Below, in pieces: positions 43,785 to 48,395 of a DNA stretch of 64,000 nt (its first letter is position 1; every line of letters begins with the position of its first letter). Source of the DNA: Bacteriovorax sp. BSW11_IV (lineage in GTDB: Bacteria; Bdellovibrionota; Bacteriovoracia; Bacteriovoracales; Bacteriovoracaceae). The position numbers were made by a program, and so were the translations under genes. The notes under the pieces are model-generated. The model had not been told where the DNA came from and did no database searches. It saw only the letters and a list, made by a program, of their open reading frames with translations. Where the stretch lies: NCBI RefSeq assembly GCF_000447755.1, contig NZ_AUNE01000004.1:1-64000 (forward strand), in the 5' to 3' direction.

Positions 43785-45773
43785 TTACGATCTTAACGTT
43801 AAGTCGTCCAGCTCCTCATAGAGCTCAAGAACTTTTGTTTCAATGAGTTGTTGGCGATCACCAAGTGCCGCAAAGTCTTGTCCTCGCTTCTCATCCATGA
43901 TCGAAAAGTCGAAATTTGCGATATTCTTCTCCACATTGGCCAGCTCTCTTTCAAGGATGTCGATTTCCATCGGAATGATCTTTAGACGCTCTTTTTCTTT
44001 ATTTGAGAGCTTTTCCTTGGTCTGTTGAGTCGGTTCTGTTTGGACATTCTCAACTTGTACTTCAACTGAAGCTGAGTTTATTTCTTCATTCTGAGCACTT
44101 TCATCAATGATGTGGTCCATGGCGACGGCCTCAAGGTAAGGTTCAACCTGCTCATAGCCAGCTTCGAAAACTTCAATGGTTTTTTTATCAAGCAACCATA
44201 TCTTATTGGTGACATTTGAAAGAAAAGAGCGGTCGTGACTGATGATAATAAGAGAGCCGCCAAATTCACTTAGTTTTGTTTCAAGAATGTTTAGTGTTTC
44301 AAGGTCAAGGTCGTTGGTAGGCTCATCGAAGATCCAAACATCGGCATCTTTCATGAGGTTGATGGCCATTTGAAGACGATTTCTTTCTCCTCCAGAGAAT
44401 GTTTTAAGGGGTCTGTGGATTTCTTCTTTGTTGAAAAGAAAACTTTCAAAATAAGCATTCACGTGCATCTTCTTATCACCTGGCAAGAAGACAGTATCGA
44501 TACCATCACCAAGAATTTCCCAAGGTGTTTTCTCTGGATTTAACTCATCTCTATTTTGAGAGAAGTATTGGATTCGAAGATTATCAGCTCTTTTAATTTT
44601 ACCAGCGAGTGGTTCAAATTCACCGCGCAGAAGGTGAAGAAGAGTTGATTTACCAACTCCATTTCTTCCGATAAGTCCGATCTTATCTCCTTTGCATACA
44701 TTTAACGTTACATTAGAGAAAAGTTCTTTATTTTTATAGCCGTAAGCAATTGTTTCGGCATCCATAAGAATTTTTGTTTTTCGATTTGAACTATTGATTG
44801 AAAGTTGAACTTCTTTTTTTGTTCTATCTTTGAGATCGCTGATTGATTTTCTAAGATCGTGGAAATTTTCCACACGCTTTTTACTTCTTGTTCCGCGCGC
44901 CTTAATCCCTTGGCGCATCCAATCAGTTTCTCTTCTTAGTGAGTTTGATAACCTTTGAAGTTGCGCCTTTCGCACTTGTTCCGATTCAACGAGGTAGGCC
45001 AGATAATCTTCATAGCTTCCTTTGAAGGACTCAACTTTTCCTCTGTTAATATGAAAAATCTTTGAACAAAGTTTGGAAAGTAGGTATCTATCGTGAGAAA
45101 TCACAAGGAAAGTTTTTTGTGAGTTCATCATCTCTTCTTCAAAGACTTTAATTGTTTCAAGGTCAAGGTGGTTTGTCGGCTCATCCCACAGAACGAGATT
45201 GTACGGTGTCGAAAGTCCAAGACTGAGAAGAATTTTCTTTTGCTCTCCACCACTAAGGTCGCGTACAAATTTGTCATGATCATTGAGACCAAAGTAACGA
45301 AGATAAGATTCATAGTTTTGAATGAGTTGCCATCCCCCTAAGTGTTCGTACTTTTCGAGAAGGTCTTTTTGAGAATTAATAAGCGATGGATTATTGTCAC
45401 CGCCAGTGATCTTAGCATTTACCTTTTCAAGCTCATCATGAATTTTTTTGATGTCAGGATAGAAGTCAAAAATAAATTCTTTGATCGAAGGATTTGTATT
45501 TTCTTGGAATTGAATTTCTTGAGGAACAAGAAATACCGAGAATGCCTTTTCTAAATCGCCCTCACCCTTGGCCTTGTCGAATTGAAATGGGGGAGTTGAA
45601 ATATCGGGTTTAACTGTCTCCGTGAGAACTTTAAAAAGTGAGGACTTTCCTTTCCCGTTCAGACCTAGCAGACCAATTCTATCTTTAAATGCAATCGAAA
45701 GAGTTGCATCTTGAAAAAGAGTTTTTCCAGCAAATGAAAGATTTAGGTGCTTTAGGGTACAAAGTAAGCTCAA
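43785..45773 (-). CDS. uup: ABC-F ATPase, Uup-type
   Basis: Two ABC domains in one chain without membrane segments. ABC1 has GLNGKGKSS and DLSGGEQKKILLSLGL with DEPTNHLDLET; ABC2 has GRNGVGKST, FSGGERNRLQMAINL and DEPTNDLDLET. The inter-domain linker contains the arginine-rich ARGTRSKKRVENFH, and a C-terminal coiled coil (about 590-660) is the Uup hallmark. ABC-F proteins act on ribosomes; Uup also binds DNA branches in E. coli. Starts at TTG 45773 with GGAG upstream. Confidence 0.9.
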   Translation of the reverse strand: MSLLCTLKHLNLSFAGKTLFQDATLSIAFKDRIGLLGLNGKGKSSLFKVLTETVKPDISTPPFQFDKAKGEGDLEKAFSVFLVPQEIQFQENTNPSIKEFIFDFYPDIKKIHDELEKVNAKITGGDNNPSLINSQKDLLEKYEHLGGWQLIQNYESYLRYFGLNDHDKFVRDLSGGEQKKILLSLGLSTPYNLVLWDEPTNHLDLETIKVFEEEMMNSQKTFLVISHDRYLLSKLCSKIFHINRGKVESFKGSYEDYLAYLVESEQVRKAQLQRLSNSLRRETDWMRQGIKARGTRSKKRVENFHDLRKSISDLKDRTKKEVQLSINSSNRKTKILMDAETIAYGYKNKELFSNVTLNVCKGDKIGLIGRNGVGKSTLLHLLRGEFEPLAGKIKRADNLRIQYFSQNRDELNPEKTPWEILGDGIDTVFLPGDKKMHVNAYFESFLFNKEEIHRPLKTFSGGERNRLQMAINLMKDADVWIFDEPTNDLDLETLNILETKLSEFGGSLIIISHDRSFLSNVTNKIWLLDKKTIEVFEAGYEQVEPYLEAVAMDHIIDESAQNEEINSASVEVQVENVQTEPTQQTKEKLSNKEKERLKIIPMEIDILERELANVEKNIANFDFSIMDEKRGQDFAALGDRQQLIETKVLELYEELDDLTLRS

Positions 45774-45864
45774 TTCTTAACTCCATCAGGTTCGGGGGCA
45801 AATATTTCCCTATTGTCCCAAATCATTATGCGATTAGTTATAATGAAAATTGTTGAGTGAGTTG

Positions 45865-45890
45865 AAAGACTAACATAGTAGGAGGTCTTT
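45865..45890 (+). promoter_or_regulatory. SD-displaying stem-loop before the AUA-started gene
   Basis: AAAGAC (45865-45870) and GTCTTT (45885-45890) enclose a 14-nt loop carrying most of the AGGAGG SD (45880-45885). The presumed AUA start follows directly. The stem is only 6 bp. Confidence 0.3.
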
Positions 45891-46601
45891 ATAAACTTTC
45901 CCGCAGCGGCTTACCAAACATTCAAACGACTAAAGGACAATCCGGTCTTTGGTCTTATTTATAGCACAACTATTAAGAAGTTAAAGTCAGAAGATAATCC
46001 TATTGCGAGAGCTAAAAGGCTTCATCGCGAAATCAATCGTTTTAATGAAGAAGTTCTAGCTCATCCAATCGTAGAAAATAATATCTCTTGTAAAAGAGGC
46101 TGTGCGGCCTGTTGTCATAGTCAGGTCAGTATAACTAGTGATGAGGCCGAACTTTTGGCCTCAATTATTATAGAAGGTCATGATATTGATTTAAAAAGAC
46201 TCTATATCCAAAGCGAAGCGCAAAACGATGATGTAAAATGGTTTAAAACTCCATACGACATTAGGCGTTGTGTCTTTTTAAATAATAAAAATGAATGTTC
46301 TATCTATGAAAATAGACCTGCTGTTTGTCGCACCAATATGGTTATGTCTGATCCTTCAGATTGCGCAACAATGGATGGTAAGCAAAGACCTATTCGATTA
46401 ATCAATACAGATAAGGCCAACATGGCCATAATGGCCGGTTACACAGTCGCTCGTACAGGTGGAACGCTACCATATTTATTGTGGAAAACTCTTCATCGCT
46501 TCAAAGGGCCTCGCTCACCACAGGGTGAATCAGCGATGGGTGAGGTGCGTCACCGCTTGAAGCAGGCGCAAAATACCGTTTCCAAAATCTTTTCAATGTA
46601 A
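45891..46601 (+). CDS. YkgJ-type Cys-rich metal-binding protein, apparent ATA start
   Basis: The product carries the YkgJ/zinc- or iron-chelating pattern CKRGCAACCH near residue 65, with later Cys in RRCVFLNNKNECSIYENRPAVCRTNM, so a metal cluster is likely. No in-frame ATG, GTG or TTG exists between the upstream stop (45879-45881) and base 46155; starting at the TTG there would delete the first Cys motif. A perfect AGGAGG at 45880-45885 lies five bases before ATA at 45891. I therefore take ATA as the start (236 aa); a sequencing error is the alternative. Confidence 0.75.
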   Translation: MNFPAAAYQTFKRLKDNPVFGLIYSTTIKKLKSEDNPIARAKRLHREINRFNEEVLAHPIVENNISCKRGCAACCHSQVSITSDEAELLASIIIEGHDIDLKRLYIQSEAQNDDVKWFKTPYDIRRCVFLNNKNECSIYENRPAVCRTNMVMSDPSDCATMDGKQRPIRLINTDKANMAIMAGYTVARTGGTLPYLLWKTLHRFKGPRSPQGESAMGEVRHRLKQAQNTVSKIFSM

Positions 46602-47285: not shown

Positions 47286-47621
47286 ATGTATACAATGTAT
47301 GGAATAAAAAACTGTGACACTGTAAAAAAGGCCATGAAAGAACTAGAGAGTAAGAATATTGCTTTTGATTTTTTTGATTTTAAAAAAGAAGTTCCTTCAA
47401 AAGAAAAAATCCTTGAATGGAAAAAAGCAATGGGTGAGTGGCCGGTTAATACAAAAGGTCGCACTTATAAAATTATTAAAGACGATTTTGAAGCTGCTAC
47501 AGATGCAGGAAAGATTACTCTTATTACAGAAAATCTTTCAGCAGTTAAAAGACCTATCCTCGAAAAGAAGGGGAAGGTTGTTTGTTTCGGATTTGATAAA
47601 ACTGTTTACGGTGAGCTTTAA
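47286..47621 (+). CDS. ArsC/Spx-family thioredoxin-fold protein (YffB-like)
   Basis: 111 residues with MYTMYGIKNCDTVKKAMKELE, a single Cys followed by D-T-x-K-K, as in YffB and related ArsC-like reductases. Mid-chain NTKGRTYK and late LSAVKRPILEKKGKVVCFGF, with the cis-Pro region VKRP, match too. It is probably a glutathione-dependent reductase or a redox-binding protein rather than an arsenate reductase, since no ars genes are near. Six bp before the DTW gene. Confidence 0.85.
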   Translation: MYTMYGIKNCDTVKKAMKELESKNIAFDFFDFKKEVPSKEKILEWKKAMGEWPVNTKGRTYKIIKDDFEAATDAGKITLITENLSAVKRPILEKKGKVVCFGFDKTVYGEL

Positions 47622-47627
47622 GAGATC

Positions 47628-48395
47628 ATGAATAAAGAAGAATACTTAAAGCGCAAAAAAGCACAACAAAAAGAATTCGAAGAGCTTCCAAGAAGAAGTA
47701 AATGTTTTAGTTGTTACAGACCACTTAATGCTTGTCTGTGCAACCATATCAGCTCATTTGATACGAAAGCGAAGTTTGTCCTGCTAATGCATATTAAAGA
47801 AGCAAGAAGGGAGAAATTAGGAACTGGAAGAATTACTGCTGCCACACTAACAAATAGTGAAGTTATTGTTGGTGTTGATTTTACAGAAGATACTCGAGTG
47901 AATGAGCTTCTTTGTGATCCTCGTTATTACCCAGTAGTCCTTTATCCTGGAGACGAAGCGTATAATGTCTCTGTCGATCCAATTGAGAAGTTTCCTTTGC
48001 CTCCTGAAAAAGAGCTTTTGATCTTTGTTATTGATGGTACATGGCCATGTGCAAAGAAGATGATGAAGGAAAGTTCTAATATAAGACATCTTCCAAGAAT
48101 CATGTTCTCTCCAAATAAGAAAAGTAATTTTCTAATTAAGCACCAACCCGATGAGTTGTGCCTTTCTACTCTAGAGTCGATTCACTTTCTATTGCAGGAA
48201 ATGGATAAGGTTGGTCTTGAGAATCTTGAGGGCAAAGAAGACAGGCTTCTTGGCTCATTTGGCGCACACGTCGAATTCCAGCTCAAGTGTAGCTCTGATC
48301 CCACAATTCCAAGTAATCGAGGCCGAAAGAGAATCAACAGGCCCGAAGAGATGAAAATCATCCCAAAACGTCACCGTAAGTTCGTTATTGACTAG
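47628..48395 (+). CDS. DTW-domain tRNA-uridine aminocarboxypropyltransferase
   Basis: The N-terminal zinc cluster RSKCFSCYRPLNACLCNHI and the motif IDGTWPCAKKM define the DTW family, which in E. coli TapT makes acp3U at tRNA position 47 using SAM. SPNKKSNFLIKHQPDELCLSTLESI is the second conserved block. 255 residues is typical, with a basic C-terminal tail (NRGRKRINRPEE) suited to RNA. It is the last gene of the YkgJ-methyltransferase-ArsC run. Confidence 0.88.
   Translation: MNKEEYLKRKKAQQKEFEELPRRSKCFSCYRPLNACLCNHISSFDTKAKFVLLMHIKEARREKLGTGRITAATLTNSEVIVGVDFTEDTRVNELLCDPRYYPVVLYPGDEAYNVSVDPIEKFPLPPEKELLIFVIDGTWPCAKKMMKESSNIRHLPRIMFSPNKKSNFLIKHQPDELCLSTLESIHFLLQEMDKVGLENLEGKEDRLLGSFGAHVEFQLKCSSDPTIPSNRGRKRINRPEEMKIIPKRHRKFVID

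Follow-up and report, generated by a model that had tools for sequence, protein, structure and literature searches.

A conserved class of non-canonical start codons, represented by AUA behind a strong Shine-Dalgarno sequence, in a cysteine-cluster gene of Bacteriovorax

The 64,000-nucleotide stretch of DNA analyzed here (the window; contig NZ_AUNE01000004.1 of Bacteriovorax sp. BSW11_IV, positions 1–64,000) contains on its forward strand a gene for a 236-residue protein with a CxxCxxCC cysteine cluster (PF03692; positions 45891–46601). The gene begins with an ATA codon (45891–45893), which follows a perfect Shine-Dalgarno (SD) sequence, AGGAGG (45880–45885), extended by T 45886. The spacing of 5 nt and the SD duplex energy of −10.9 kcal/mol make this a strong and well-placed ribosome-binding site. 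Two in-frame TAG stops, at 45876–45878 and 45879–45881, lie just 5' of the start and bar any upstream canonical start. The first in-frame ATG, GTG or TTG is a TTG at codon 89 (46155–46157), which falls past the C67-x3-C-x2-CC motif, and the AUA is the sole possible in-frame start that precedes the motif. An earlier note on this DNA had described the stop at 45879–45881, the lack of a canonical codon before 46155 and the AGGAGG five bases before the ATA, and the sequence is as it claimed.

A predicted −10 element, TATAAT (45839–45844, forward strand), ends 46 nt 5' of the start codon. TATAAT-like elements were present 16–50 nt upstream of the start in all 21 orthologs that begin with AUH (AUA, AUU or AUC) or CUG. 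Therefore, the predicted transcripts have short leaders containing little beyond the SD; the predicted leader of the window gene is about 40 nt long. All reading frames opened by ATG, GTG or TTG codons in the leader close by position 45873, short of the ATA, and the upstream gene, an ABC-F ATPase (Uup-like; 43785–45773, reverse strand), is divergent. Thus, the start is explained neither by a frameshift out of the leader nor by coupling with the upstream gene, and the AUA gene is the first of its transcript. The earlier note also placed the SD partly in a hairpin loop. Such a hairpin can be drawn (6–7 bp, 45865–45871 with 45884–45890, the SD partly in a loop of 12–14 nt), but its fold is unremarkable against shuffled sequences (z −0.98; equaled by 34 of 200 shuffles), and we rejected it as an element of note. 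A 9-bp inverted repeat (TGAGGCCGAACTTTTGGCCTCA) at 46142–46163 lies within the coding region and overlaps the internal TTG. An Rfam search of the region returned nothing but one sub-threshold chance match.

Three forward-strand genes with ATG starts follow. A SAM-dependent methyltransferase (PF13489; 46614–47282) begins 12 nt downstream of the AUA gene. The next gene, an ArsC/Spx-related reductase (47286–47621), is likely part of the same operon and is present in 37 ortholog loci. The DTW-domain (TapT-like) gene behind it (47628–48395), likely of the operon too, was read from motifs with no NCBIfam match, and its relatives lie nearby in other loci. Together with the Uup-like ABC-F gene, these neighbors raise the possibility of a connection to RNA modification or translation.

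The cysteine-cluster protein matches the PF03692 profile with 42.1 bits, above the gathering cut-off of 23. It has no NCBIfam family match, including the equivalog defined for Escherichia coli YkgJ. Therefore, the label "YkgJ-type" given in the earlier note holds as a domain-level resemblance only. The window protein shares with the PF03692/YkgJ family the C-x3-C-x2-CC motif and later cysteines, whereas its subfamily has an N-terminal xxxPAIA helix that is absent from Bdellovibrio-type homologs, which have ATG starts. Eight cysteines (67, 71, 74, 75, 127, 136, 146 and 158) are invariant in 60 orthologs, which suggests the binding of a metal (Zn or Fe) or an Fe-S cluster. An AlphaFold2 model calculated from the 60-row alignment has a mean pLDDT of 93.0. 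Neither a PDB fold search with this confident model (E ≥ 4.7) nor a sequence search for solved relatives gave a match, and no function emerged from publications on YkgJ or the CxxCxxCC domain.

A search of genome contigs with the single protein yielded no confirmed relative, and an alignment-based search found 73 loci. From these we assembled 60 orthologs of the same family, many of them from MAGs, with duplicates removed, a readable 5' end and an alignment from residue 1. The codon homologous to ATA 45891 is ATG in 31 (in one of them, L050, shifted by a codon), ATT in eight, ATC in six, ATA in six, TTG in four, GTG in four and CTG in one. Starts against which IF3 discriminates (20 AUH and one CUG) are thus found in 21 of 60 orthologs, in many genera and over several clades, and the non-canonical start is conserved as a class. 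The remaining 39 have canonical starts; therefore, the gene can function without AUH. The comparison of start codons in related strains, proposed in the earlier note, gave the same codon within the genus: the same-genus ortholog, 58% identical, has ATA behind AGGAGG. Another Bacteriovorax, sp. DB6_IX (L033, a record not labeled as a MAG), reads AGGAGG-TGCTT-ATA-AAT-TTC-CC. This 61st sequence (L033:2996 onwards) was left out of the count because of an apparent frameshift shortly past the first dozen codons, which may mark either an assembly error or a pseudogene. Bdellovibrio-type homologs have canonical starts. As far as the search extended, the AUH trait appears confined to Bacteriovoracaceae-type genomes. 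On the tree of orthologs, the distribution of AUH requires at least seven changes, three of which are forced by well-supported branches. By parsimony, the root cost is 19 for ATG and 21 for each other codon, which does not settle whether the ancestral start was AUH or AUG. We dropped the idea of active selection against AUG inside AUH clades, since parsimony changes between AUH and AUG are about equal to or above those among AUH codons.

Conservation in codon phase begins exactly at the AUH column. In AUH orthologs, the positional entropy is flat upstream of the start (1.65, 1.68 and 1.70 by phase) and becomes codon-phased right downstream of it (0.81, 0.66 and 1.34). Within the start codon, the first base is nearly fixed, the second is invariantly T and the third is free. 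Residue 4 is proline in all 60 orthologs, among which each of the four CCN codons occurs, and residue 7 is alanine in 58. Where codon 1 encodes leucine or valine, it is always NTG (5 of 5 and 4 of 4); elsewhere in these genes, NTG accounts for only about 21% of leucine and 18% of valine codons. Such a restriction fits AUG and its near-cognates and does not fit an internal hydrophobic residue. The earlier note's reading of AUA as the start thus gained support from the comparison.

Other accounts of the 5' end fare poorly against these data. Gene finders would pick TTG 46155, the first canonical start, and the earlier note had named peptides beginning there as a possible outcome. However, initiation at this TTG or another internal canonical codon is extremely unlikely, and we rejected it: it would delete residues 1–88, which are conserved in the 60 orthologs (P4, A7, R40, H45, C67, C71, C74 and C75 among them), with P4, A7 and the four cysteines kept in nearly all, and the coding-phase entropy begins upstream, at the AUH. 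In the AlphaFold2 model, residues 1–60 form confident helices (blocks of pLDDT 91–98). Therefore, the stretch that an internal start would remove belongs to the fold. Initiation at an upstream canonical codon, in frame or through a frameshifted extension, draws on the in-frame ATG, GTG or TTG codons found upstream in nine of the 21 AUH/CUG orthologs, most of which lack an SD or fall beyond the transcript as predicted. It is nonetheless very unlikely, as in the other 12 the interval from the upstream stop to the AUH is free of canonical codons, the window's leader frames all end too early, the upstream sequence is not conserved, and the SD is spaced 4–7 nt from the AUH in all 21. The draft state of the genome, in 59 contigs, might favor a sequencing or assembly error with a true base giving ATG, as the earlier note had considered. 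This is close to inconceivable given the ATA of the same-genus ortholog, the ATA of strain DB6_IX, and 19 more AUH or CUG orthologs in independent assemblies, including a two-contig genome (ATC, L008). Judged by these comparisons, AUA 45891 is a real and conserved start, with sequencing error excluded.

It could also be supposed that AUA is a normal start in this lineage, owing to a special initiator tRNA or a changed genetic code, and a second AUH gene, encoding an Mpo1-like protein, does occur in the same genus. In 815 kb of the window genome, with 761 predicted genes, we looked for strong SDs followed by non-canonical codons and found only these two genes with convincing AUH starts and no canonical alternative, so that the layout goes beyond chance; several hundred SD-led starts are ATG, GTG or TTG. 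The adjacent genes are canonical as well: in the ortholog loci, the methyltransferase, ArsC/Spx-like, DTW-type and ABC-F genes have ATG, GTG or TTG as the start codon in every case in which it could be read. Since, in addition, the third base of the start varies among A, C and U and CUG is also seen, such a change of decoding is highly improbable. The Mpo1-like gene (PF06127; L232:16521–16958, G000 contig C19) has an ATC start behind AGGAG; the start is ATA in its same-genus ortholog (L241) and ATG, GTG or TTG in most of its other relatives.

The AUH starts are coupled to unusually strong SDs. The median SD energy is −10.2 kcal/mol for AUH orthologs and −6.5 kcal/mol for AUG orthologs (Mann-Whitney p 4.5e-5). 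Four neighboring genes in the same genomes have SD energies of −3.35 versus −5.05 kcal/mol, with no matching strengthening, and the difference is therefore not genome-wide. The link has few independent origins, and its three well-supported independent pairs are too few for significance in a phylogenetically paired test. Group-wide, SD accessibility did not differ significantly. Five orthologs with ATG starts (L014, L040, L042, L055 and L060) contain, just 5' of the SD, C/T-rich stretches complementary to it that could sequester it.

IF3 discriminates against AUU, AUC and AUA (PMC4611024). The infC gene starts with AUH behind GGAGG in the window genome and in many relatives; in the window genome (L191), GGAGGTGACTT is followed by ATT. 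These starts imply that IF3 discriminates against AUH in the Bacteriovoracaceae-type lineage, and since infC begins with AUU, AUC or AUA here, IF3 autoregulation probably exists in these genomes. For the same reason, it is plausible by analogy that the AUA gene is sensitive to IF3. Both genes have AUH behind a strong SD, which in infC of these genomes takes the form GGAGGT-N4/5-AUH. Unlike infC, the window gene encodes a cysteine-cluster protein, so that an effect of IF3 would be cross-regulation and not autoregulation, and its orthologs often switch to AUG, GUG or UUG. A second parallel is provided by ccpN (AUA) and cvfC1 (AUU) of staphylococci and Bacillus subtilis, which combine a conserved non-canonical start with a strong SD (PMC13009471). 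As is likely in the window, cvfC1 is the first gene of an operon, and it encodes a putative zinc finger (PMC13009471). The proteins and the phylum are unrelated, however, and the third base varies among the relatives of the window gene. In Staphylococcus aureus, AUU and AUA starts with extended SDs yield about 10% of AUG translation; cvfC1 and ccpN, with the same layout in Staphylococcus, give about 10% of the AUG control, with ccpN reaching 30% in rich medium (PMC13009471). Translation was measured there, whereas the window gene is known from sequence.

Based on these comparisons, a mechanism can be proposed. The strong SD would recruit the 30S subunit, and the initiator tRNA on this SD-led complex would start translation at AUA 45891 with an N-terminal fMet. 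The mismatch at the third base of the start codon would make the complex non-canonical and a target of IF3 proof-reading. IF3 would destabilize it, so that a small, IF3-dependent fraction of AUG-level output proceeds. Production of the cysteine-cluster protein, and perhaps of the proteins encoded further along the operon, would be kept down and would increase whenever the supply of IF3 falls behind that of 30S subunits, as with infC. We consider an AUA start with a strong SD and a throttled, IF3-dependent output to be the best explanation of the locus, and hold it with reasonable confidence. The position of the start, the lack of canonical alternatives, the conservation of the AUH class and its coupling to strong SDs are established at the level of sequence; the throttling and an IF3 sensitivity like that of infC, ccpN and cvfC1 are probable by analogy. 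It is almost as likely as not that the AUA is a real start acting as a fixed attenuator, with expression constitutively low and IF3 varying too little to regulate it. The tendency of AUG orthologs towards weaker SDs, several of them next to complementary C/T-rich stretches, fits selection for low output by any route, and S. aureus cvfC1 shows no medium dependence with its AUU (PMC13009471). Against a fixed attenuator stand the intrinsic dependence of AUH starts on IF3 (PMC4611024) and a separate clade of orthologs that uses another IF3-antagonized mode.

In that clade, which consists of four orthologs with GTG (L046, L048, L053 and L064) and one with ATG (L071), TATAAT ends 6–7 nt before the start and there is no SD. 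A leaderless mRNA is predicted for the cysteine-cluster gene of these five genomes, whereas the window gene has a leader and a perfect SD. Leaderless initiation is also antagonized by IF3 (PMC4611024; PMC9031893). We speculate, with considerable doubt, that IF3 controls the gene family-wide through two unrelated modes of initiation: most non-canonical clades would use AUH with a strong SD, and another clade a leaderless GUG or AUG mRNA. If so, the gene would be a conserved IF3-responsive gene outside infC, and a cysteine protein of the metal or Fe-S type, with its operon, would be tied to the condition of the initiation apparatus.

To our knowledge, conserved AUH start codons are found in very few bacterial genes. 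The cysteine-cluster gene would add a new protein family and a new phylum, with a codon that drifts among AUA, AUU, AUC and CUG, and its orthologs form a natural test set for uses of IF3 discrimination beyond infC. Finders limited to ATG, GTG and TTG are predicted to truncate these genes, with the loss of half of the putative metal-binding motif. The same finders would misplace the start of infC, which in the loci collected here (L170–L199) is commonly ATT, ATC or ATA behind GGAGGT.
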